DNA from: Lentzea waywayandensis
GTDB taxonomy: Bacteria > Actinomycetota > Actinomycetes > Mycobacteriales > Pseudonocardiaceae
Assembly: GCF_900115955.1 (NCBI RefSeq)
Contig: NZ_FOYL01000004.1
Coordinates: 558,001-622,000 of the forward strand
Length of the DNA stretch: 64,000 bases
Direction of reading: 5' to 3'
In this document: piece by piece, positions 23,569-34,156 of the stretch
How positions within the stretch are numbered: the first letter of the stretch is position 1
How the letters are laid out: every line of letters begins with the position of its first letter
Notes under the pieces: model-generated
What the model was told of the DNA's origin: nothing
Databases searched by the model: none
Seen by the model: the letters and a program-made list of their open reading frames with translations, nothing else
Made by a program: the position numbers and the translations under genes

Positions 23569-24720
23569 TTAGAGCTCCTTGACCCGTTCGCTCTTGTCGT
23601 CCTTCGGCGCCGTGTCCTGCGGATTGAGCACGTCCACCTTTTCCGGCTTCTGCACCGCGTCCGAGTCGGACACCAGCGACCGGATCCCGGAGTTCAGCAC
23701 CGCCAGCAACGGCACGGCCAGCAACGCCCCGGCGATGCCCCCGGTCACCAACCCGCCCGCGATCGCCAGCACCACGGCCAACGGGTGCAGCTTGACCGCA
23801 CGGCCCAGCAACAACGGCTGCAGCACGTGCGACTCCAGCTGCATCACGCCGATGAGCACGGCCAGCACGACAAGAGCCGCAATAGGCCCGTTGGTCACCA
23901 ACGCGATCAACACCGCCACGGCACCCGTGAACACCGCACCGATGATGGGGATGAACGCGCCGAGGAACACCAACGCGGACAGCGGCACCACGAGCGGCAC
24001 ACCGATGATCGCCAAGCCGACACCAACACCAACGGCGTCGACGATCGCGACCACAGCCGTAGCGCGCACATAAGAAACGAGAGAGCCGAACCCGCGGCGG
24101 CCGGCCACGTCGACACGCTGACGCACGTCGCGAGGCACCGCACGCGTCACGAAGCGCCAGATCCCGTCGCCGTCGTGCAAGAAGAAGATGAGGGTGAACA
24201 GCGCGAGCAACAGCCCGGTGAGCAACTCGCCCAGGGTCGCCGCGGTGGTCAACGCGCCGGACGTGATCTCGGCCTGGTTCTCCTTGATCGTCTTCACGAT
24301 CTCGTTGATGTAGTTCTGCAACTGCTGGTCGGACAGGTGCGCGGGCCCGTCCTTCAGCCACGTCTGGATCGTGTCGAGCGAGGCCGCCACCTGCGTCTGA
24401 AGTTCGGGCAGGCCCCGGGAGAACTCGCTGATCACGAACGTCAGCACGCCGCCGAGCACGCCGATGCCGATGATCATCATCAGGGTCGTCGCCACGCCGC
24501 GCGGCACCCGCCACTCGACGAGTTTCGCCACGCCGGGCGACAGCAGTGCGGCCAGCAGCAGAGCGATAGCGACTGGGATCACTATCGACGCGAGGAAGCT
24601 CAGTGCGTAGGCCACCACGTACAGCGCGGCGATCACGACGACGAATCGCCAGCTCAGGGCGGCGCTCACCCGTAGCAGCAGGGGAACGCGGTTGCTGATC
24701 TCCGACTCCGGCGCGCTCAT
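23569..24720 (-). CDS. AI-2E/PerM family membrane transporter
   Basis: 383 residues from ATG 24720 (MSAPESEISNRVPLLLRVSA). Multi-pass protein with the family pattern: paired N-terminal helices (VVVIAALYVVAYALSFLASI), the segment LAALLSPGVAKLVEWRVPRG, an amphipathic loop (about residues 95-165), and the C-terminal block LGAFIPIIGAVFTGAVAVLI, then QLESHVLQPLLLGRAVKLHP. Family members are proposed exporters of autoinducer-2 or ion exchangers; no substrate can be assigned here. Monocistronic, convergent to the sigma module. Confidence 0.85.
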   Translation of the reverse strand: MSAPESEISNRVPLLLRVSAALSWRFVVVIAALYVVAYALSFLASIVIPVAIALLLAALLSPGVAKLVEWRVPRGVATTLMMIIGIGVLGGVLTFVISEFSRGLPELQTQVAASLDTIQTWLKDGPAHLSDQQLQNYINEIVKTIKENQAEITSGALTTAATLGELLTGLLLALFTLIFFLHDGDGIWRFVTRAVPRDVRQRVDVAGRRGFGSLVSYVRATAVVAIVDAVGVGVGLAIIGVPLVVPLSALVFLGAFIPIIGAVFTGAVAVLIALVTNGPIAALVVLAVLIGVMQLESHVLQPLLLGRAVKLHPLAVVLAIAGGLVTGGIAGALLAVPLLAVLNSGIRSLVSDSDAVQKPEKVDVLNPQDTAPKDDKSERVKEL

Positions 24721-24799
24721 GGACCTCACGGTAACTGTTCGAACCCTCGCCAAGCCGGAACTCCAGAAGGGATGATCCGACTCGTCAGGGGAGGACGAA

Positions 24800-26977
24800 G
24801 TGATCAAGCCGGAAGACTTGACCGAAGTCGAGCGCCAGGTCGCAGGGGCCTACGCGGGCGGTACCGAGACAGACCTGACCGGACAGAGCGTTCGCGGCGA
24901 GGTGCTCACCGGTCTCCTGACCGGCATGTACCGGGTGCCGCGCAAAGGATTGCCCGCTTTGCGGCTCCGAAACGCGCGGATCACCGGCAGGTTCGAACTG
25001 GAGGGCACCCGCGTCACGCGGGTCATCGACCTCACCCACTGCACCTTCGAGGAGTCGCTCGACCTCCGCATGGCCCGCCTCATCGGGCTCCGGCTGCGCG
25101 GCACCCGCGTCCCCGGCCTTCAGGGCCGCAACCTTCGCGTCTTCAGCGACCTGGTCCTCGAAGCCGGCTTCACCTGCACCGGCACCGTCGACCTCACCGA
25201 CGCCGCCGTCGACGGCACGCTCCGGCTCGCCGGCGCGGTCCTGCGCAGCAACACCGACCACGCACTCCTGGGCGCACGGCTGCGGGTCAGCGGATCCGTC
25301 CAGGCCATCGCGATGCGCGCACAGGGCGAGGTCCGGCTCAGGGGTGCGGCGATCGGCGGCAGCGTCCACCTCGGCGGCGCCCGCCTGATCAACACGGGCA
25401 AGGACGCGCTCGACGCGTCCGGGATCGTCGTCGCGGGCAACGTCTTCTGCAACGCCGAGGGCGGCCGCTTCAACGCGGACGGCCGGGTGCTGTTCGACGG
25501 CGCGCGCGTCGGCGGGAACGTCGAGTTCACCGGCGCCCGCCTGCACTCCGCCCACCGCGTCGACAACCAGGTGCTGGTCCTGCCGCACGGATCGGCCGAC
25601 GAGGCCGCGACGCTCGTGGCCGACCGCATCCGGGTCGAGGGCAACGTCGAGCTCGACGACGGCTTCACCAGCGAGGGCACGGTCCGGCTGCCCAACGCGA
25701 GCATCGGCGGCTACCTCCGGCTCTCCGGCGCGGTGATCGGGCCGCGGGAGATCGCCGAGGAACTCGCCGGCGACGTCACGAACCGCATCCCGGTCGCCCT
25801 GCACGCGGACGGCCTTCAGGTCCGCGGCGACGTCGAGGCGCGCAGCGCGGTCAACGGCGCGGGCGCCCGTTCGCTCGCGTTGCAGACCTACGGCCAGGTC
25901 CGGCTGTCCAACGCGACCATCAACGGCAGCGCCAGCATGTCCGGGGTGTCGTTGCACGGGCCCGGCATCGACGTCCTGTTCGCCGACCGCCTCCAGATCG
26001 GCGGCACGCTCTTCCTGCGCGAGCTGCGGGCCAAGGGCTCGGTCCGTCTCCAGAACGCGAACATCGGCTCGACGCTCGACATGTCCGGCGCCGAACTGAC
26101 CCTGCCGAGGCTGCGCGCGAACGGCACGCAGAAGCCGTCGCTGGACGCCCGCGCCATCACGATCGGCAAGGACCTCCTGTGCAGCCGCGGGTTCACCGCG
26201 GTCGGCGGCGTGCGGATCCGGCTGGGCGAGGTCGGCAAGATGGCGACGTTCAGCAACTCGCACCTCGGCTCGACCGCCGCGGACATCGCGTTGAACGCCT
26301 ACGGCCTCACCGTCCACCAGTTCCGCCTGCACATCCCCGAGGGCCAGCAGCCCAAGGGCAAGGTCGTGCTGAGCCGCCTCAAAGCGGTGTCGGTGACCGA
26401 CGGGCCAGGGCTGTGGGACGCCGAGGGCGGCGTCGCCGTGGACGACTTCGAGTTCGCCGGCATCACCGCCGACCCCGACGTGCCGGTGCAGACGCGCCTC
26501 AAGTGGCTGCTCAAGGTGCAACCCGACTTCGCGCCAGGACCGTACGAACAGCTCGCCGCCGTCTATCAGCAGGGCGGCGAGGAGGAGCTCGCGCAGAAGG
26601 TCCAGCTGGAGAAACAACGCCGCCGCTACTCCGAACTCGGCCGTGCCGGGCGGGTCTGGGGCGTGGTGCAGCGGTTCACCGTCGGCTACGGCTACCGGCC
26701 GTGGCTCGCGATCTGCTGGCTCGGCGTCTTCTGGCTGTTCGGCGCGCTGTGGTTCAACTGGCACCCGATGGTCAAGCTCAACCAGGACGAGGACCCGGTC
26801 TGGAACGCGTCACTGCTCGCGCTCGACCTGCTGATCCCGATCATCGACTTCGGCCACGACGGCAAGTGGCAGTTCACGGGCGCCTCGCAGTGGATATCTT
26901 CGCTGCTCGTGGCCGTGGGCTGGGTGCTCGCGTCGACTGCGGCGGCGGGTGCGGCACGCGTGCTGAAGCGGGTGTGA
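24800..26977 (+). CDS. Beta-helix repeat protein with C-terminal membrane domain
   Basis: 725 residues, GTG at 24800 after GAGGACGA. Residues about 45-530 are a long run of solenoid repeats with alternating hydrophobic positions and the recurring cores GTVRLPNASIGGYLRLSGA, GSVHLGGARL, GEVRLRGAAI, GNVEFTGARL, GSVRLQNANIGSTLDMSGAE, as in pentapeptide or bactofilin-like beta-helices. After a linker, three hydrophobic segments near the end (WLAICWLGVFWLFGALWF; LLALDLLIPIID; ISSLLVAVGWVLASTAAAG) anchor it in the membrane. Similar proteins are labelled 'membrane-associated oxidoreductase' in Streptomyces without evidence I can see; no redox motif is present. Function unknown. Confidence 0.7.
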   Translation: MIKPEDLTEVERQVAGAYAGGTETDLTGQSVRGEVLTGLLTGMYRVPRKGLPALRLRNARITGRFELEGTRVTRVIDLTHCTFEESLDLRMARLIGLRLRGTRVPGLQGRNLRVFSDLVLEAGFTCTGTVDLTDAAVDGTLRLAGAVLRSNTDHALLGARLRVSGSVQAIAMRAQGEVRLRGAAIGGSVHLGGARLINTGKDALDASGIVVAGNVFCNAEGGRFNADGRVLFDGARVGGNVEFTGARLHSAHRVDNQVLVLPHGSADEAATLVADRIRVEGNVELDDGFTSEGTVRLPNASIGGYLRLSGAVIGPREIAEELAGDVTNRIPVALHADGLQVRGDVEARSAVNGAGARSLALQTYGQVRLSNATINGSASMSGVSLHGPGIDVLFADRLQIGGTLFLRELRAKGSVRLQNANIGSTLDMSGAELTLPRLRANGTQKPSLDARAITIGKDLLCSRGFTAVGGVRIRLGEVGKMATFSNSHLGSTAADIALNAYGLTVHQFRLHIPEGQQPKGKVVLSRLKAVSVTDGPGLWDAEGGVAVDDFEFAGITADPDVPVQTRLKWLLKVQPDFAPGPYEQLAAVYQQGGEEELAQKVQLEKQRRRYSELGRAGRVWGVVQRFTVGYGYRPWLAICWLGVFWLFGALWFNWHPMVKLNQDEDPVWNASLLALDLLIPIIDFGHDGKWQFTGASQWISSLLVAVGWVLASTAAAGAARVLKRV

Positions 26978-27053: not shown

Positions 27054-27090
27054 TCGCCGACGTCGACTTGATCACGTTGATCGTCGGCGA
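27054..27090. repeat. Inverted repeat upstream of secreted protein gene
   Basis: TCGCCGACG (27054-27062) and CGTCGGCGA (27082-27090) are perfect 9-bp complements separated by 19 nt, 50 bp before the assigned start at 27140. It may be an operator or a leader hairpin of the small secreted protein gene. No matching regulator is nearby. Confidence 0.35.
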
Positions 27091-27139
27091 ATCCCTTGAG
27101 TGCCACCGAGTAGCGAGGTTTCCTGCGTTGTCCGCTGAC

Positions 27140-27898
27140 ATGCGAGCGAAGACGGGAGCGAACGGCATCCGCCGGTTCGCCACCCGAGCGCTGCTCGCCG
27201 TCGGTGGGGCGATCGCGGGAACGGCCGTTGCCTGGGCGCTCACCACGTCTGCCGCGAACGCGGAGACGGTGCCTTCTGCTGATGGGCAGCAGGTCGACGT
27301 CGTCAGCAAGCTCGTCGCCAAGACGGACGAGAAGCTGCCGGTCGTCGTTCCCGCCGCCAAGGCAGTGCACAAGCTCGACGAGACCTTGCGCGCCGAGCAG
27401 GAGAAGGCTCGCGCCGCCCTGCCGGACGTGCAGGTCTCCCAGGCGGTCGACCAGATCGCCGCGCGAATCCTGCCGCAGGTCACCAGGATCGGTCAGTCCA
27501 GCACCCCCGCCACCGAGCGGGCGATGGACGTGACGTTCCCGGAGATCCCGGCTCCCGCCACCGATGCCGGACAGTCGCCGGCACCGGTGGTCTCGCAGTT
27601 CACCGGCTCGTCCGGTGCCACGTGGACGGATCTGTTGGGGCACAACGACTTCGTTGTGCCCTCCGAGCAGCGTCCGTCCCTGCCCAGCAACCCGTTCCCG
27701 AAGCTGCCCGTTCCGGCCCCCGCGCCGGTGCAGTGCTCTTCGTGCAACGACGGTTCTGGCTCTGCCAAGGGCAGCACGTTCGCTGCCTTCGCTGCGTCCG
27801 GCAACTCTCACGGCATCTCGTCGACGAGCGCTCTCGCGCCGTCCACTGACGAGGTCACCGTGACGCCGGGCAAGCAGCCCGGTATCAACCCCGACTGA
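27140..27898 (+). CDS. Secreted protein of unknown function
   Basis: About 252 residues from ATG 27140 (MRAKTGANGIRRFATRALLA); an in-frame TTG at 27068 would add 24 unlikely residues. A basic N-region and hydrophobic core (LLAVGGAIAGTAVAWALTTS) end at ANA-E, a good signal peptidase site. The mature part has a helical segment (KLVAKTDEKLPVVVPAAKAV) and a Pro/Ser-rich tail with one CSSC motif (PVQCSSCND). No family recognised. It precedes the chaplin-like repeat protein gene by 195 bp in the same direction and may share its role at the cell surface. Confidence 0.6.
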   Translation: MRAKTGANGIRRFATRALLAVGGAIAGTAVAWALTTSAANAETVPSADGQQVDVVSKLVAKTDEKLPVVVPAAKAVHKLDETLRAEQEKARAALPDVQVSQAVDQIAARILPQVTRIGQSSTPATERAMDVTFPEIPAPATDAGQSPAPVVSQFTGSSGATWTDLLGHNDFVVPSEQRPSLPSNPFPKLPVPAPAPVQCSSCNDGSGSAKGSTFAAFAASGNSHGISSTSALAPSTDEVTVTPGKQPGINPD

Positions 27899-28093
27899 TT
27901 CCAGCGCGCGGTCCGCGGCAGCCTCCTCCCCTGGCTGTCCGGAAGTCGACCGTCGCGCTTTTTTCTTGCGCTCACACAGGTCGATCACCGCGTGCGACTC
28001 CCCCGGTGATGACGCGCCCTCCCCTGCGCGTTTCGGCCCCACCCCCTTGAGCCCCCGTCGCTTTCTCGACGGGAAACCGATGAAGGAGATCTA

Positions 28094-31000
28094 ATGCAGA
28101 CCTGGGCAAAGCGCGGACTTCAGACCGCGTTTGTCACTGGTGGTTTGCTGATGCTCGGTACGGGCATCGCTTCTGCCCAGGAGAACGTCGACCCGGACGC
28201 AGCGCCTCCGGCCGTCGACGTCGCGGCCGCTGTTCCGATCAAGGCCGACCAGAACAAGCTGGCCACCCCGGTCAAGGAGATCACGGTCCCCAAGGTGGAC
28301 CGGACGATCAGCACGGACCGCGTCACCAGCGCGGTGCCCACCCGCACGGCAGCGCCCGTCGCGAACCCGCTGGTCCGTCAGGCCGGCGAGCGCCTTCAGG
28401 GCACCCCGCTCCAGAACCTGGTGCGCGGCAACACGATCCAGGCGCACGTCGATGTGCCGATCAACATCTGCGGTAACGCGATCGCGGTTCTCGCCAACAC
28501 CGAGGCGACCGGCGACTGCTCCCAGAACACGCACCGCGACGGCACGATCGTCACCGATGGCGCGGGCCAGGCTCTCGCCGGCAACGTCGTCGCCGTCAAC
28601 CACGTGCTCCCGGTCCAGCTGACCGGCAACGCGATCGCGGCGGGCGGCAACGCCACCACCAACACCGACGCACAGCAGGTCTCCACGACCGGCGGCGACA
28701 TCACCACCAACGGTGACAAGGGCGCCATCTCCGGCAACGTCGTCGCCGAGCACGGCGCGACCCCGGTCCAGATCACCGGCAACGGTGTGGGTGCGGCCGG
28801 CATCGCCGACGCCAACTCGACCGCCGACACGTTCGCCTCCTCCGAGGGCGACGTCCTGACGAGCGGCAAGAACAGCTCGATCTCCGGCAACGCCGTGCCC
28901 CTCGCCCTGGCCCCGCTGGCCGAGGTCAACGGCAACGCGGCCGCCGCCGCGAGCAACGCCACCACCGACTCGGTGCAGTCCGGCACCGCGTACGCCGGTG
29001 GCAAGACCGACACCAACGGCGACCCGGCCACGCTCGCCGGCAACGTCGTGGCGCCCGCCCTCTCGGGCCCCGTCACGGTCGACGACAACGCCGCCGCCGC
29101 CGGTGGCAACGCGACCGCCGTCAGCGAGACGACCAACGAGTCGATCGCCGGTGGCATCATCCACACGTTCGGCGACGGTTCCACGGCGTCCGGCAACATC
29201 GCCGGCGCGCCGGTCGCGCTGCCGACCTCCGCGGGCGGCAACGGCGCCTCGATCGTCGGCAACGCGCTGACCGACCACACCAACAAGTCGCACTCGAAGT
29301 CGGGCGGCGAGGCCTACACGGTCGCCGACCACTCGGTGCTGTCCGGCAACATCGCGGACCTCCCGCCGGCCACGGCCATCGACGTGTGCGGCAACGGTGC
29401 GACGCTGGCCGGTCAGGCTGCGGGCACCTGCGAGAACGACGTCAAGTCGATCACCTCGGGCTACCAGGGCACGACGGGCACCGACTCCGTCATCTCCGGC
29501 AACATCGCGTCCACCCCCGTCGCGACGCCCGCCGAGGTCTACGGCCTCGCCGCCGCCCTCGGTGGCCAGGCGACCGGTTCGGCCGACGAGGTCAAGGTGG
29601 TCCGCTCCAGCGGTACCCCGAACACCGAGGACGACAACGGCACGGTCTCCAGCAACATCGTGACCGCCCCGACCGCGGCCGCACCGCAGGTCTTCGCGGT
29701 GACCGCCGGCCTGGTCGGCAACACCGTCTCGGACACGTCGAACGACACCACGGTCGAGGCGGGCAACAACCCCCACGCGACCGGCAAGAAGAGCTCGGCC
29801 TCCGGCAACATCGTCCAGGTCCCGACCTCGACGCCGGCCCAGGTCTTCGCCGACGGTGCCACCCTGGTCGGCAACAACAAGACCACGGGCGACAACGCCA
29901 CCGACATGAAGGCCGGCGGCGACGCTCTCACCACCGGTGAGCAGGGCTCCATCGCGGGCAACGTCGTCTCGGCTCCGGTCGCCACCGGCACCCAGGTGCT
30001 CGGCTGGTCGGTCGGCGGCGGCAGCAACGTCGACGCCTTCTCCACCAACGACCTGTCGTCCGTCGCCGGTGGCGACGTCAACAGCAACGGTGACGGTGGT
30101 TCGGTCTCCGGCAACCTGATCGGCGCGCAGCCGGCCGTCCTCCCGGCTGTCCCGGGCAACACGGTCGCCGCAGCCGGCATCACCAACTCCGACGTGGTGT
30201 CCGACACCAACGTCGTGTCCGGTGCCGACAGCTACTCCACGGCCGACGACGCCTCGGTGTCCGGCAACCTGATCCACGTCCCCGCCAACGCCGTCGCCGG
30301 CGTGTACGCGGACTCGGTCGCGGCTGCGGGCAACGCGACGACCGTCACGGACAAGACGTCGTACACCCAGGCCGGTGGCGAGATGCTCACGGAGGGCAGC
30401 GGCCCGCTGTCCGCCCGCGAGATGACCGTTCCGGTCGAGGCCGCTGCCAAGGTCGCGCGCATCCCCGTCGAGGTCGTCGGCCAGGCGACCACGCTGGGCA
30501 CGAGCGACGACACGCAGCTCACCGGCGAGGACACCGATGGCACCCTGCGTGCCGCGCAGCTCAAGGGCCTGGAGCTCCCCAAGGGCGTCGACAGCCTGCT
30601 GAAGGCCAACGAGGTTCCGACGTTCCACGGCCTCGACAGCAAGCTGCCCGTGAACCAGCTGCCGAACCCGGCTGACCTGGCGGCTCTGGCCGGCCAGCTG
30701 CCCACCCCGGCGCTGCCCGCGGTGGCGCAGGAGCGCTCCGCTCTGCCGGTCAACGGCGGCACCGCCGGCCTCACGCCGAACGTCCAGGGCCTGCCCCTCG
30801 GCCAGGTGCTGGAGGCCGCGAAGGGTCTGATCCCGGCCGGCGCCACCGAGCGCTCGCTGCCGTCCCTCCCGATCACCGCCCCGGCCCTGCCGGTGCCGGT
30901 GCAGCTGCCCGCGCTGCCCACCGAGCGCTCGCTGCCCACGCTGCCCGTCGACGGCCCGGCCTCCCTCTCGGGTCTGAACCTGAACCCGACCCAGGGCCTC

Positions 31001-31108
31001 GCGCCGCAGGCTGACGAGCGCGCGCTGCCGCAGCTGCCGTTCAACGCCCCGGCGCTCGCCATGATCGACCCGGCCAACCTGTTCCAGACGGTGACCGGCT
31101 CGCTGTAA
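28094..31108 (+). CDS. Large secreted chaplin-like repeat protein
   Basis: 1004 residues, ATG 28094 with AAGGAG six nt upstream. Signal peptide (LQTAFVTGGLLMLGTGIASA). Residues 110-771 are thirteen tandem units, twelve of exactly 51 residues (the last is 50), followed by a degraded fourteenth to about 822. Each unit starts (I/V/L/A)(S/A)GN(V/I), then a VP-x-V-type stretch, then a second GN about 15 residues on, then a Gly/Thr/Asp-rich end. Units 1 and 7 carry paired cysteines (PINICGNAIAV with C at +16; AIDVCGNGATL with C at +14). This pattern resembles the chaplin domain (SGNVVQVPVxxPVNVCGN...C). The C-terminus (about 870-1004) is Pro/Leu-rich with four ER(S/A)LP-type boxes. No sortase motif or membrane anchor. 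Probably a surface-coat protein; the chaplin relation is inference. Confidence 0.8.
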   Translation: MQTWAKRGLQTAFVTGGLLMLGTGIASAQENVDPDAAPPAVDVAAAVPIKADQNKLATPVKEITVPKVDRTISTDRVTSAVPTRTAAPVANPLVRQAGERLQGTPLQNLVRGNTIQAHVDVPINICGNAIAVLANTEATGDCSQNTHRDGTIVTDGAGQALAGNVVAVNHVLPVQLTGNAIAAGGNATTNTDAQQVSTTGGDITTNGDKGAISGNVVAEHGATPVQITGNGVGAAGIADANSTADTFASSEGDVLTSGKNSSISGNAVPLALAPLAEVNGNAAAAASNATTDSVQSGTAYAGGKTDTNGDPATLAGNVVAPALSGPVTVDDNAAAAGGNATAVSETTNESIAGGIIHTFGDGSTASGNIAGAPVALPTSAGGNGASIVGNALTDHTNKSHSKSGGEAYTVADHSVLSGNIADLPPATAIDVCGNGATLAGQAAGTCENDVKSITSGYQGTTGTDSVISGNIASTPVATPAEVYGLAAALGGQATGSADEVKVVRSSGTPNTEDDNGTVSSNIVTAPTAAAPQVFAVTAGLVGNTVSDTSNDTTVEAGNNPHATGKKSSASGNIVQVPTSTPAQVFADGATLVGNNKTTGDNATDMKAGGDALTTGEQGSIAGNVVSAPVATGTQVLGWSVGGGSNVDAFSTNDLSSVAGGDVNSNGDGGSVSGNLIGAQPAVLPAVPGNTVAAAGITNSDVVSDTNVVSGADSYSTADDASVSGNLIHVPANAVAGVYADSVAAAGNATTVTDKTSYTQAGGEMLTEGSGPLSAREMTVPVEAAAKVARIPVEVVGQATTLGTSDDTQLTGEDTDGTLRAAQLKGLELPKGVDSLLKANEVPTFHGLDSKLPVNQLPNPADLAALAGQLPTPALPAVAQERSALPVNGGTAGLTPNVQGLPLGQVLEAAKGLIPAGATERSLPSLPITAPALPVPVQLPALPTERSLPTLPVDGPASLSGLNLNPTQGLAPQADERALPQLPFNAPALAMIDPANLFQTVTGSL
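28421..30559 (+). repeat. Tandem 153-bp coding repeats (51-residue units)
   Basis: Thirteen units begin at residues 110, 161, 212, 263, 314, 365, 416, 467, 518, 569, 620, 671 and 722 of the protein; the spacing is exactly 51 except for the last unit (50). A weak fourteenth follows. Identity between units is low at most positions, while the SGN(V/I) start and the second GN are held, so the array is old and under selection for period rather than recently amplified. Confidence 0.85.
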
Positions 31109-31144
31109 CACCCCGCAGTTGTAACACCCTCCTCCGGTAAGAAA

Positions 31145-31181
31145 CTGAGCCCCAGCGACAGACGTTGTCGCTGGGGCTCAG
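31145..31181. terminator. Strong terminator hairpin
   Basis: Perfect 16-bp arms CTGAGCCCCAGCGACA (31145-31160) and TGTCGCTGGGGCTCAG (31166-31181) with a 5-nt loop, 36 bp after the chaplin-like gene. It also overlaps the stop of the decayed GGDEF frame coming from the other side. Confidence 0.92.
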
Positions 31182-31690
31182 TGCCGTGCGGGGGGTGTTT
31201 GTGCTGTTGAGAGAACGTTCTGTGGCTCCGCATCGCCGTCACTCGTCACCCAGTGGACGTGCGGCCGTTCCCCGACGATCTGCCGGATCAACTCCGCGAT
31301 CGGCGCCCCGTCCCCGAAGTCGTGCTCGGCCAGCACCGCCAGCACCGAGTCCCCGTAGCGCGCGACCGTGAAGTCGGGCCGCAACCCTTGCCGCAGAGTC
31401 TTCGCCGCGGTCAGCACGTCGTCCGGCCCCGTGACCAGGACCAGCGTCACGAGCGTGCCGCGTGTGCGGGCGCGGATGAGCGCCTGCTCCAGGCGATCGA
31501 GCAGCAGCGCGTGTCCGGGCAGGCCTGTGAGCGGGTCGTGCAGCACAGTCCGGTTCTAGCCGAGGCCAGGGCTGTTGACCAGCACCGGCGCGACGATCAG
31601 CCCCGCACGGGTGAGTCCATCCGCTCGAACAACAACCTCGCCGCCCCGATCGGCGTGCTGCGGAAAGTCACGGACGCCGGAGGCGCCCAG
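31178..31690 (-). pseudogene. Decayed PAS/GGDEF diguanylate cyclase remnant
   Basis: An open frame at 31178-31546 gives 122 residues beginning HDPLTGLPGHALLLDRLEQA, the start of a GGDEF domain, but where GGDEF should be it has ARYGDSVLAVLAE, and the metal-binding half is shortened. Just upstream, separated by an in-frame TAG and apparent frameshifts, are PAS-like fragments in two frames (VTFRSTPIGAARLLFER and ADGLTRAGLIVAPVLVN). The simplest reading is a PAS-GGDEF gene broken by several mutations. The GGDEF part is fairly sure, the PAS part less so. The rest of the spacer up to dnaB shows nothing recognisable. Confidence 0.6.
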
Positions 31691-31953: not shown

Positions 31954-34005
31954 TCAGGTCTGGGCCAGGTCGGTGAAGCGGCTGTAGTGCAGCTGGTGCG
32001 CCACGACGATGGTCGCGGTCGGGCCCGCGCGGTGCTTGGCGATGATCAGGTCGGCCTCGCCGGCGCGCGGGTCGTCTCGTTCCCAGGCGTCCGGGCGGTT
32101 GACCAGGATGACCATGTCGGCGTCCTGCTCCAGGGAGCCTGACTCTCGGAGGTCGGAGAGCATCGGGCGCTTGTCGGTTCGCTGTTCAGGACCACGGTTC
32201 AGCTGGGAGATCGCGATGACCGGGACGTGGAGCTCCTTGGCGATGAGCTTCAGGTTTCGCGAGAACTCCGAGACTTCCTGCTGGCGCGACTCGGTCTTCT
32301 TGCCCGACGACATCAGCTGGAGGTAGTCGACGACCACGAGCTTGAGGTCGTGCCGCTGCTTGAGGCGGCGGGCCTTGGCCCGGATCTCCATCATCGTCAG
32401 GTTCGGGCTGTCGTCGACGAAGAGCGGGGCCTCGCTGATCTCGCTCATGCGGCGGGCCAGGCGGGTCCAGTCGTCGTCGCTCATCGTGCCGCCGCGCATG
32501 TCGCTCAGGCGGATGCGCGCCTCGGCGGAGAGCATGCGCATGACGATCTCGGTGCGGCTCATTTCCAGGCTGAAGATGGCGCTGGTCATGCCGTGCTTGA
32601 CGGAGCACGACCTGGCGAAGTCCAGGCCCAGCGTCGAGTTGTGGGTCGGGATCATCGTCTTGCCCGCGAGGTACAGGTGGTCGTGGTTGTCGACCTCGAC
32701 GCAGCGCACCGGCACGGAGGCGACCGGGCGCACGGCGACGATCTCCACCTGGTCGTGCCTGCCGAGGCCCGCGATCAGTTCGGCCAGGTCGCTGCGCAGA
32801 CGGGCGAAGCGGCCGTCGATCTGCAGGGCGGCGAGCAGTTCCTCGCGCTGCTTGCGGGACGCGCGCAGGTACGCGGCGGGGATGTGCGGGTCGTCGGCCA
32901 GGTCGAGGTCCTTGGCGACGCGCAGTTCGTCGTCGGTCAGTTCCAGGTCGCCCAGGCCCGAGAGGAACAGGCCGAGCGAACGCGGCGACAGCGGCAACGA
33001 GACCGAAGGCAGGTCCCAGGCTGCGGACAGGCGCACGAACATGCGGCACACGCCGACGCGCTCGAACAGCTGCGCGGTGGTGCGGATCGCCCAGAAGCCG
33101 CCGGTCTCGCTGCACGACTCCGTCAGCCACTGGTGTTCGCCGTCGGCCACGATGACCGTGCCGTCGGAGAACTCGACCTCGAAGCACGGGCGGCCCGTCA
33201 TCACCTCGGTCGCCGCGACCACTCGGGTCGGGCGGCCGTCGGCGCCGATCAGGAACTCCCCGACGGAGACCTCGCCCATCGTCGTCCAGCCGGACGGGGT
33301 GGGCAGCGGCGTGTCCAGTGCCAGCGCCTTGCCGACACCGGGACGGGCGGCGACGATGATCATCTGACCGCCGTGCAGGCCGTTGGTCAGTGCGTCGAGG
33401 TCGGCGAAGCCCGTGGGGATGCCCTGCGAGATGCCGCCCCGGGACGCGATCGCGTCGATCTCGTCCATCGTCGGCTGGAGCAGGTCCTCGAGGGCGACGT
33501 AGTCCTCGGTGGTGCGGCGGTCGGTGACCTCGTAGATCGCGGCCTGCGCGCGGTCGACCACCTCGTCGACGTCCGCGCCCTCGGCACCGTTGTACCCGAG
33601 CTGCACGATGCGGGTGCCCGCCTCGACGAGACGGCGCAGCACCGCCTTCTCGGCGACGATCTCGGCGTAGTAGCCGGCGTTCGCGGCCGTCGGGACCGTC
33701 GCGATCAACGTGTGCAGGTACGGCGCGCCGCCCACGCGCAGCAGTTCGCCGCGGCGTTCGAGCTCGGCCGAGATGGTGATCGGGTCGGCCGGTTCGCCGC
33801 GGCCGTACAGGTCGAGGATGCAGTCGTAGATCGCCTGGTGCGCCGGGCGGTAGAAGTCGTTCGGCGCGAGCGCCTCGATGACGTCCGCGATCGCGTCCTT
33901 CGACAGCAGCATGCCGCCCAGAACGGACTGCTCCGCGGCGAGGTCCTGCGGCGGTTGACGCTCGAATGCGGGCTCCGCCATGCCCCGGTCGTCCACGAGC
34001 GCCAC
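31954..34005 (-). CDS. dnaB: Replicative DNA helicase DnaB, intein-containing precursor
   Basis: 683 residues from GTG 34005 (MALVDDRGMAEPAFERQPPQ), chosen over ATG 33981 for its homologous N-terminus and upstream AGGGGTG. N-terminal domain: AAEQSVLGGMLLSKDAIADV, FYRPAHQAIYDCILDLYGRG. The RecA-like domain starts IPTGFADLDALTNGLHGGQM, then RPGVGK, where a 230-residue intein (227-456) interrupts the Walker A motif before STLGLDFARS. Downstream motifs: FSLEMSRTEIVMRMLSAEA, VVVDYLQLMSSG, AISQLNRGPEQRTDKRPMLS, DLRESGSLEQDADMVILVNR. The mature helicase is about 453 residues. It unwinds DNA at replication forks. Confidence 0.96.
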   Translation of the reverse strand: MALVDDRGMAEPAFERQPPQDLAAEQSVLGGMLLSKDAIADVIEALAPNDFYRPAHQAIYDCILDLYGRGEPADPITISAELERRGELLRVGGAPYLHTLIATVPTAANAGYYAEIVAEKAVLRRLVEAGTRIVQLGYNGAEGADVDEVVDRAQAAIYEVTDRRTTEDYVALEDLLQPTMDEIDAIASRGGISQGIPTGFADLDALTNGLHGGQMIIVAARPGVGKALALDTPLPTPSGWTTMGEVSVGEFLIGADGRPTRVVAATEVMTGRPCFEVEFSDGTVIVADGEHQWLTESCSETGGFWAIRTTAQLFERVGVCRMFVRLSAAWDLPSVSLPLSPRSLGLFLSGLGDLELTDDELRVAKDLDLADDPHIPAAYLRASRKQREELLAALQIDGRFARLRSDLAELIAGLGRHDQVEIVAVRPVASVPVRCVEVDNHDHLYLAGKTMIPTHNSTLGLDFARSCSVKHGMTSAIFSLEMSRTEIVMRMLSAEARIRLSDMRGGTMSDDDWTRLARRMSEISEAPLFVDDSPNLTMMEIRAKARRLKQRHDLKLVVVDYLQLMSSGKKTESRQQEVSEFSRNLKLIAKELHVPVIAISQLNRGPEQRTDKRPMLSDLRESGSLEQDADMVILVNRPDAWERDDPRAGEADLIIAKHRAGPTATIVVAHQLHYSRFTDLAQT
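32638..33327 (-). other. Class 3 DnaB intein with decayed homing endonuclease
   Basis: Residues 227-456 of the precursor. The first residue is Ala, not Cys or Ser (ALALDTPLPTPSGWTTMGEV). The class 3 'WCT' triad is present: Trp293 after the block B His (GEHQWLT), Cys435 in block F (VRCVEVDNHDHLYL) and Thr454 in block G (MIPTHN), with Asn456 last and Ser as the first C-extein residue. The middle holds worn LAGLIDADG-type segments (SLGLFLSGLGDLEL; REELLAALQIDGRF) lacking the catalytic acids, so splicing is expected but homing is not. Confidence 0.9.
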
Positions 34006-34156
34006 TGCTGAATCACCCCTGCGAAGAGTCGAAAGCCGGTGCGTGAGTCCCCTAGTTGTACCGCGAGGCACCGACAATTTCGGGCGGCCACGCTGTGCGA
34101 TGGCCTTGCCCTGGTCGCGACGCTAGAGGGACCCGTCCGGAGCAAGCAAACCAGCG

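Follow-up and report, generated by a model that had tools for sequence, protein, structure and literature searches.

A gene in Lentzea waywayandensis (Pseudonocardiaceae) raises the question of whether a chaplin, known from Streptomyces as a protein of one or two domains, can be built as one giant array. We analysed 64,000 nucleotides of its DNA (contig NZ_FOYL01000004.1, positions 558,001 to 622,000; hereafter the window), in which the open reading frame (ORF) at 28094-31108 on the plus strand begins with ATG and encodes 1004 amino acids and a stop. A sequence-only reading had taken its product for a giant chaplin-like coat protein; the observation was confirmed and the interpretation partly supported. 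In our view the array is, with moderate probability, a secreted chaplin-related beta-solenoid that would form a rigid amphipathic slab at the hyphal or spore surface and play a chaplin-like coat role in Pseudonocardiaceae. The gene is laid out as follows.

28094..28177, plus strand: signal-peptide-like leader MQTWAKRGLQTAFVTGGLLMLGTGIASA, residues 1-28, alike across genera
28214..28318, plus strand: N-terminal beta segment, residues 41-75, preceding the array and possibly capping it (AlphaFold2 strands 41-73)
28421..30409, plus strand: thirteen 51-residue units (110-772); from periodicity, AlphaFold2 and coevolution we read every unit as one coil of a two-layer beta-solenoid
28421..28573, plus strand: unit 1, the most chaplin-like, with Cys126-Cys142 (best Pfam stretch 110-139)
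29339..29491, plus strand: unit 7, with the second Cys pair, Cys432-Cys446, seen in the sequence
30410..30538, plus strand: degenerate fourteenth coil or C-terminal cap, residues 773-815 (AlphaFold2 strands 776-810)
30539..31105, plus strand: tail rich in Pro and Leu that carries four ER-LP boxes and is predicted to be disordered (predicted local distance difference test score, pLDDT, below 50 for residues 815-1004)

The repeat is regular in length and loose in sequence. Residues 110-772 divide into 13 units of exactly 51 residues, in agreement with the near-exact period claimed from the letters; identity at lag 51 was 0.31 in residues 101-800, compared to a shuffled maximum of 0.145 (300 shuffles, lags 5-199), and mean pairwise identity among the units was 0.286, compared to at most 0.112 in 1000 within-unit shuffles. 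The earlier statement that most positions have drifted holds between units and not between species, where the protein is well conserved. The claimed SGN opening of each unit stands, with G at column 3 in 12/13 units and N at column 4 in all 13, while the second GN at columns 18-19 is weaker (G in 9/13, N in 8/13) and complete in only 7/13 units counted by eye. Units 1 and 13 open with a GTG codon, so that their true first residue is V where the alignment shows M. Cysteines are confined to units 1 (C126, C142) and 7 (C432, C446), as had been noted, and the ER boxes of the tail, four as reported, begin at residues 880, 919, 944 and 975.

The relation to chaplins proposed from sequence withstood profile searches. 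The protein scored 29.3 bits against Pfam PF03777 (ChpA-C; gathering score 21), the single match in its own genome, and PF03777 matched 17 of 19 aligned array-family sequences (from 31 loci) at an expect value (E) of 0.001. Two of the 19 also matched Extensin_1 and one GLTT, both low-complexity families, and an NCBIfam search gave no match to the array. Unit 1 matched a hidden Markov model of 30 chaplin domains (30 of 57 extracted, from genomes inferred to be Streptomyces) with an i-Evalue of 4.2e-11. A profile of all 13 units aligned with these 30 domains at an hhalign probability of 94.9, the alignment placing SGN, GN and the next G in register. The match survived removal of both Cys units (71.5), compared to 10 for the best-scoring of 300 column-shuffled controls and 1.1 for the reversed profile. 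The spacing of the first and second GN is also shared, with 13 residues between them (G at columns 3 and 18 in the units, 7 and 22 in chaplin domains). Two further features of the chaplin domain family, the position of the third GN and a Cys pair in each domain, are missing, and the layout of classical chaplins (one or two domains, the long ones with a sortase signal) is replaced by 13 units. As the sequence-only reading had stated, the protein lacks a sortase signal, its last 200 residues containing no L[AP]xTG motif. The C-terminus is predicted disordered with only a short helix at 993-1003 (AlphaFold2), and the array protein has neither the LPxTG-type signal nor the hydrophobic helix of sortase-anchored surface proteins. 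The comparisons thus support an array that is chaplin-related at the domain level and chaplin-like in design; because the third GN is displaced, the Cys pair occurs in 2/13 units and a sortase signal is absent, we do not call it a classical chaplin.

The array has in common with Streptomyces chaplins the core of its first strand (strand A), SGN with a second GN 13 residues on, an alternating hydrophobic face and a Cys pair in some units. It differs in having 13 domains rather than one or two, an added second strand and a conserved locus with a partner protein ending in QPGxxPD. According to earlier reports, ChpE likewise lacks Cys (PMC3079736), long chaplins have two domains and three GN motifs (PMC7766987), and the GN residues are assigned to turns in a paper from 2026 (PMC13251363). 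The description of chaplins as functional amyloids dates back to 2003, and their fibrils give reflections near 4.7 Å and 10 Å (PMC3079736), as expected of stacked arches. The accessible text of a 2013 survey of 100 actinobacterial genomes lists chaplin or chaplin-like genes in Kitasatospora, Catenulispora, Stackebrandtia, Thermobifida, Streptosporangium, Nocardiopsis and Arthrobacter and reports none for Pseudonocardiaceae; in the accessible open-access literature we found no paper on the array or on any chaplin in this family. A sequence search of the PDB with the profile of 30 chaplin domains returned 0 chains at E up to 1.

Chaplin proteins with several domains are not peculiar to this organism, which qualifies the idea of a new giant type. 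Proteins with several chaplin domains, up to eight, occur in another actinobacterial family (f31, inferred to be probably Streptosporangiaceae) and in a few other families; our alignment holds 14 of 15 extracted proteins, the pattern having recovered 15 of 22 loci tried. The f31 proteins share with the array the tandem domains, the start of the leader (xxTWAK, here MRTWAK) and a linker, GGNxTSGxSSIL, that resembles the end of the array unit. They differ in having Cys in nearly every unit, a spacing of mostly 54-57 with longer exceptions, a C-terminal hydrophobic helix and a strong PF03777 match, and in lacking the QPG..PD ending in the stretches examined. One of them, L154, has eight PF03777 stretches (E 1.4e-48) spaced 54-57 residues apart, once 66, and 14 Cys. 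By inspection, these proteins appear intermediate between chaplins and the array. Proteins of about 3-8 domains were seen at L154, L145, L146, L153, L142, L143, L149 and L147, some with a C-terminal hydrophobic helix or an LPxTG-like motif, and L150, from another family, holds a six-copy chaplin-like array with a similar leader and units without Cys.

The arrangement of the unit was addressed by AlphaFold2 and, independently of any model, by coevolution. AlphaFold2 predicted an all-beta array, the opposite of a disordered or helical fold; in the segment ahead of the array, block pLDDT was 84-92 for residues 41-70 and 57 for 71-80. For coevolution we used 81 arrays, namely the window and 80 of 177 related stretches found through two leader peptides, with 1062 units detected at a threshold of 12 bits that we chose; 886 of 981 neighbour pairs were used (spacing 51-53, others dropped). 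Conservation of the leader among the 80 collected loci is partly a result of this selection; the same-genus and family searches described below used the whole protein. Among the top 30 couplings of neighbouring units, 18 joined identical columns, compared to 7 at lag 2, 2 at lag 3 and 3-6 in ten order-shuffles. Covariation across species at fixed unit positions, which removes the contribution of duplication history, gave the same result: the mean z was 0.607 for the same column in neighbours and 0.05-0.21 at other offsets, fell to 0.303, 0.171, 0.042 and -0.011 at lags 2-5, and reached at most 0.272 in 2000 non-neighbour draws. The array thus behaves as one stacked solenoid.

Within the unit, coupling along the antidiagonal i+j=48 is seen between odd residues and is slight between even ones. 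After removal of the Cys units, this odd set ranked first among 153 antidiagonal sets (mean z 2.28, compared to 0.32 for the even set); its strongest pairs were 3-45, 5-43, 17-31, 15-33 and 11-37, and one even pair, 8-40, reached z 2.0. At fixed positions, odd pairs between strand A and the second strand (strand B) again covaried (0.315), compared to 0.036 for even pairs and -0.015 for other A-B pairs. Coupling of a single parity argues for two sheets packed face to face as an arch, not for a hairpin, and the unit's second strand appears to pack on the chaplin strand. The earlier description of a chaplin-like unit holds for the chaplin domain, and the unit is more than that domain. Cysteines also occur as facing pairs, which may form disulfides: 114 of 125 Cys-containing units hold exactly two and 11 hold one, most commonly at columns 17/31 (48 units) and 17/33 (38 units). 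Per protein, the 81 arrays contain 0 Cys in 9, 2 in 22, 3 in 7, 4 in 40, 5 in 2 and 6 in 1.

If odd residues face inward, even residues face outward, and the two outer faces differ sharply. Over all 1062 units, the even columns of strand A have a mean hydropathy of +2.51 with 0.5% charged residues, and those of strand B a mean of -1.1 with 28% charged. The window's own units concur (2.31 and 1.3% for strand A, -1.2 and 34% for strand B), and the 30 inferred Streptomyces chaplin domains show the same alternation in strand A, with even columns at 3.1 to 4.2 and odd columns negative except for the Cys column. With the outer face of sheet A hydrophobic and that of sheet B polar, the slab would be amphipathic.

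The array is no local oddity; it sits at a conserved Pseudonocardiaceae locus. A whole-protein search matched 37 of 60 genomes including its own, all 23 other genomes of the genus matched (one in two pieces), and a profile search of the family matched 117/150 genomes (own included) and 39/46 genera, 26 of the 117 only weakly (best E 8.7e-5 to 2.4e-13). Thirteen units were found in 67 of the 81 arrays, 14 in 7, 12 in 4, 17 in 2 and 11 in 1, and neighbouring units are spaced by exactly 51 residues in 775/981 pairs. Given this length, this spacing and the conserved locus, the array is an object of nearly fixed length and not a recently expanding repeat. Homologues of two neighbouring genes recur in the flanks, which we examined to at most 6 kb and which some contigs cut shorter: the AI-2E family transporter in 78/80 relatives and dnaB in 54/80.

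23569..24807, minus strand: gene for an AI-2E family transporter, the neighbour most regularly present near the array (PF01594, E 3.5e-66)
31954..34077, minus strand: dnaB (PF03796/PF00772), a marker of the conserved chromosomal locus

Same-genus paralogues carry 10 and 18 detectable units, and L189, from another family of the order, carries 7. The 18 units of one paralogue (L192, 2383-5703) lie in 1107 residues, and this protein has no Pfam match at E 0.01. In three Pseudonocardiaceae genomes (L184-L186) the leader, the AI-2E neighbour and a QPG..PD gene are kept, and the protein lies in a frame of 483-564 codons without an array unit; here the setting of the locus persists and the solenoid has gone.

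The secreted neighbour noted from sequence is real and is the array's regular companion.

27140..27898, plus strand: secreted low-complexity partner protein ending KQPGINPD; the ORF spans 27068-27898, and the start codon in it was picked by eye

By tblastn, homologues were found in only 19/80 loci, so the partner looked Lentzea-specific. An ORF with a C-terminal QPGxxPD, however, lies 145-241 nucleotides before the array start in 79/81 loci; of the other two, L033 has merely 52 nucleotides of upstream sequence and L111 has no such ORF in 1500 nucleotides. In 15 aligned sequences the partner leader is alike and the middle unlike. The QPG..PD ending also adjoins two paralogues of the array (L190, L191) and the leader proteins without an array in L184-L186; it was not found near the 18-unit paralogue L192, in 27 inferred Streptomyces chaplin loci or in 42 loci (L142-L183) with about 1.5 kb of flank. 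The repeated pairing suggests a joint function of the array and the QPGxxPD protein, which is not proof of interaction.

These results can be combined into a mechanism. Each 51-residue unit would form one coil, with strand A spanning roughly columns 3-17 and carrying the chaplin core (SGN...V.V.P...CGN), then an arch at about 18-30 and strand B at 31-45, whose inward odd residues would pack on the odd residues of strand A. The coils would stack in register, so that a single chain contains the kind of stack of arches that individual chaplin molecules may build by amyloid assembly, here covalently linked and of near-fixed length. The array would be secreted by the general pathway together with the upstream QPGxxPD protein and fold outside the cell into a slab of about 14 coils, whose length along the stack we estimate at about 7 nm (4.8 Å per coil). 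Its hydrophobic face would turn toward air or lipid and its polar face toward the wall; the disordered tail or the partner protein would keep the slab in place, and its ends could be capped, as the N-terminal segment at residues 41-75 may do, or slabs could stack further. A surface coat for aerial growth or spores is what the chaplin relation and the face pattern would suggest. We put forward, as a possibility we doubt more than we trust, a wider version in which the array is a covalent stretch of chaplin fibre: each Streptomyces chaplin domain would be one in-register rung, with the SGN/CGN corners as Asn ladders and the valines on the air side, the array would serve as a tractable, soluble-length model of chaplin amyloid, and in Pseudonocardiaceae a single pre-assembled amphipathic slab would have taken the place of coat subunits that polymerise.

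Several points weigh against the chaplin-related slab. First, at the level of the domain, the third chaplin GN, 12 residues past the second, is missing, the unit's third GN standing at columns 25-26, five residues on; most Cys are absent too, the pair occurring in 2/13 units rather than in each domain. Second, part of the same-column signal between neighbours may be duplication history, given that units become less alike the farther apart they lie (identity 0.344 at lag 1, 0.244 at lag 6), and the fixed-position covariation rests on the 67 arrays with 13 units, which amount to only about 37 effective sequences. Within units, pairs 7-41, 9-39 and 13-35 are weak without the Cys units (z 0.9, 1.1 and 0.8), several top couplings lie off antidiagonal 48, and when both parities are counted, antidiagonals 82 and 50 (mean z 0.81 and 0.74) nearly equal 48 (0.83). 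Third, AlphaFold2 tends to favour beta-solenoids for tandem repeats, and its five models of the array vary in mean pLDDT from 73.9 to 56.6. Foldseek with the array model found no significant PDB match, the best being CsgA (E 0.43, probability 0.04), which superposed with a root-mean-square deviation of 8.2. AlphaFold2 on L154 (14 sequences) gave periodic strands with a mean pLDDT of 50 and a predicted template modelling score of 0.50; this low-confidence model neither supports nor refutes a shared fold and provides no structural bridge to chaplins. Fourth, five weakly matching Pseudonocardiaceae genomes were opened and no units were found in any; besides L184-L186, L187 and L188 show only a 30-residue leader similarity, a pattern search finding neither units nor a QPG..PD ending. 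The array is therefore less widespread than the tally of 117/150 implies. Lastly, classical chaplins are expressed with aerial hyphae under sigma BldN, and no clear BldN-like promoter was found: 9/12 matches to the consensus occur in 18/80 upstream regions and none is higher, the window's own best is 9/12, and 59/400 mononucleotide shuffles reach at least 9/12.

The main rival, which we think rather unlikely, keeps the same chaplin-related solenoid and makes it an adhesive or cell-wall scaffold that links hyphae to one another or binds a glycan or the partner instead of repelling water. The nearly uncharged even face of strand A would be unusual for a soluble adhesin, and Pfam shows no binding domain in the array protein at E up to 1.

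We rate as improbable a reading in which the array, like CsgA, serves as an amyloid subunit or nucleator and builds long fibres by head-to-tail stacking instead of forming a single capped slab. CsgA (PDB 8c50, Pontibacter korlensis) and FapC (PDB 9u4u) do top the Foldseek list, though not significantly. CsgA is a two-layer stacked beta-arch with, judging by the aligned ranges, about one coil per unit, and the array may resemble it in this. In contrast to the array, it has a core of Gln/Asn ladders, and we found no sequence relation; the curlin repeat is about 22 residues long, compared to 51 in the array unit, which has no curlin Pfam match at E up to 1. CsgA is described as growing by open-ended coil stacking (PMC10192328), and FapC as having imperfect repeats with conserved Asn residues that each form one stacked layer (PMC12822426). 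FapC resembles the array in these respects and differs in having three repeats and a Greek-key layer, its Foldseek match reaching only E 1.0. Strands 41-73 and 776-810, outside the regular units, may cap the stack, the near-constant number of units suggests a defined object, and a Pfam scan of the neighbours shows no curli-type secretion or nucleator gene, all of which argues against a fibre. Searching sequences of solved structures with the unit profile returned 8qai 'sc-CC-7-LI', which we take to be a designed coiled coil (E 2.4e-4, though no single stretch passed), and, at E 0.08-0.09, two malonyl-transacylase chains; these were regarded as composition matches.

A still smaller chance, in our estimate a slight one, is that the solenoid is an artefact of repeat folding and that the array is largely flexible, with only the chaplin-like cores ordering at surfaces. 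The insignificant Foldseek match, the low-confidence L154 model and the predicted disorder of flanks and tail are consistent with this idea; coevolution, on the other hand, yields in-register stacking and the arch without any model, and a spacing held at exactly 51 residues would be needless for flexible linkers. That the GN motifs are convergent and the array an unrelated beta-repeat is scarcely credible, for although unit 1 alone passes E 0.001 as a single stretch and the 18-unit paralogue lacks a Pfam match, the PF03777 match exceeds its cut-off and extends to most of the family, the hhalign match persists without the Cys units, and a similar leader and multi-chaplin intermediates exist.

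The remaining features of the region concern the sequence before the array gene and its neighbours.

27899..28093, plus strand: intergenic region between partner and array, defined from sequence
28083..28088, plus strand: ribosome-binding site AAGGAG, read from sequence

The element GAAGGAGA was found 5' of the array gene in 47/81 loci. Within 27899-28093, a conserved stretch with GCGCGCGGTC is common to Lentzea and Saccharothrix relatives; it is a possible promoter and has no known match. A scan for sigma-70-type promoters in this intergenic region gave no match, a terminator scan gave fewer sites than in shuffles, and an Rfam search of the array region, ten relatives and the intergenic region gave nothing that exceeded the gathering score; we take three weaker matches in the window region to be chance. 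A minus-strand mirror ORF antisense to the array (28091-31111, 1006 codons) was rejected as a by-product of GC-rich codons, because the plus-strand protein is the one kept across species. Beside the array, a minus-strand gene at 31178-31546 encodes 122 residues with a partial GGDEF match and has a homologue in the flank of 33/80 relatives, and a pentapeptide-repeat protein at 24800-26977 (plus strand) has one in 37/80. DnaB (31954-34077, minus strand) contains an insertion (ALALDTPLPTPSGW ... MIPTHNS) that by its motif resembles a small intein, and the Pfam DnaB_C match falls into two stretches.

An array in one chain, with a near-fixed number of coils and a strand arrangement derived from coevolution, provides a testable template for the architecture of chaplins, and such a template would explain why their hydrophobic residues alternate. 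It offers a handle on how water-repellent coats are built, and hints that one large family of antibiotic producers among the actinobacteria may make its surface coat out of a pre-assembled unit.

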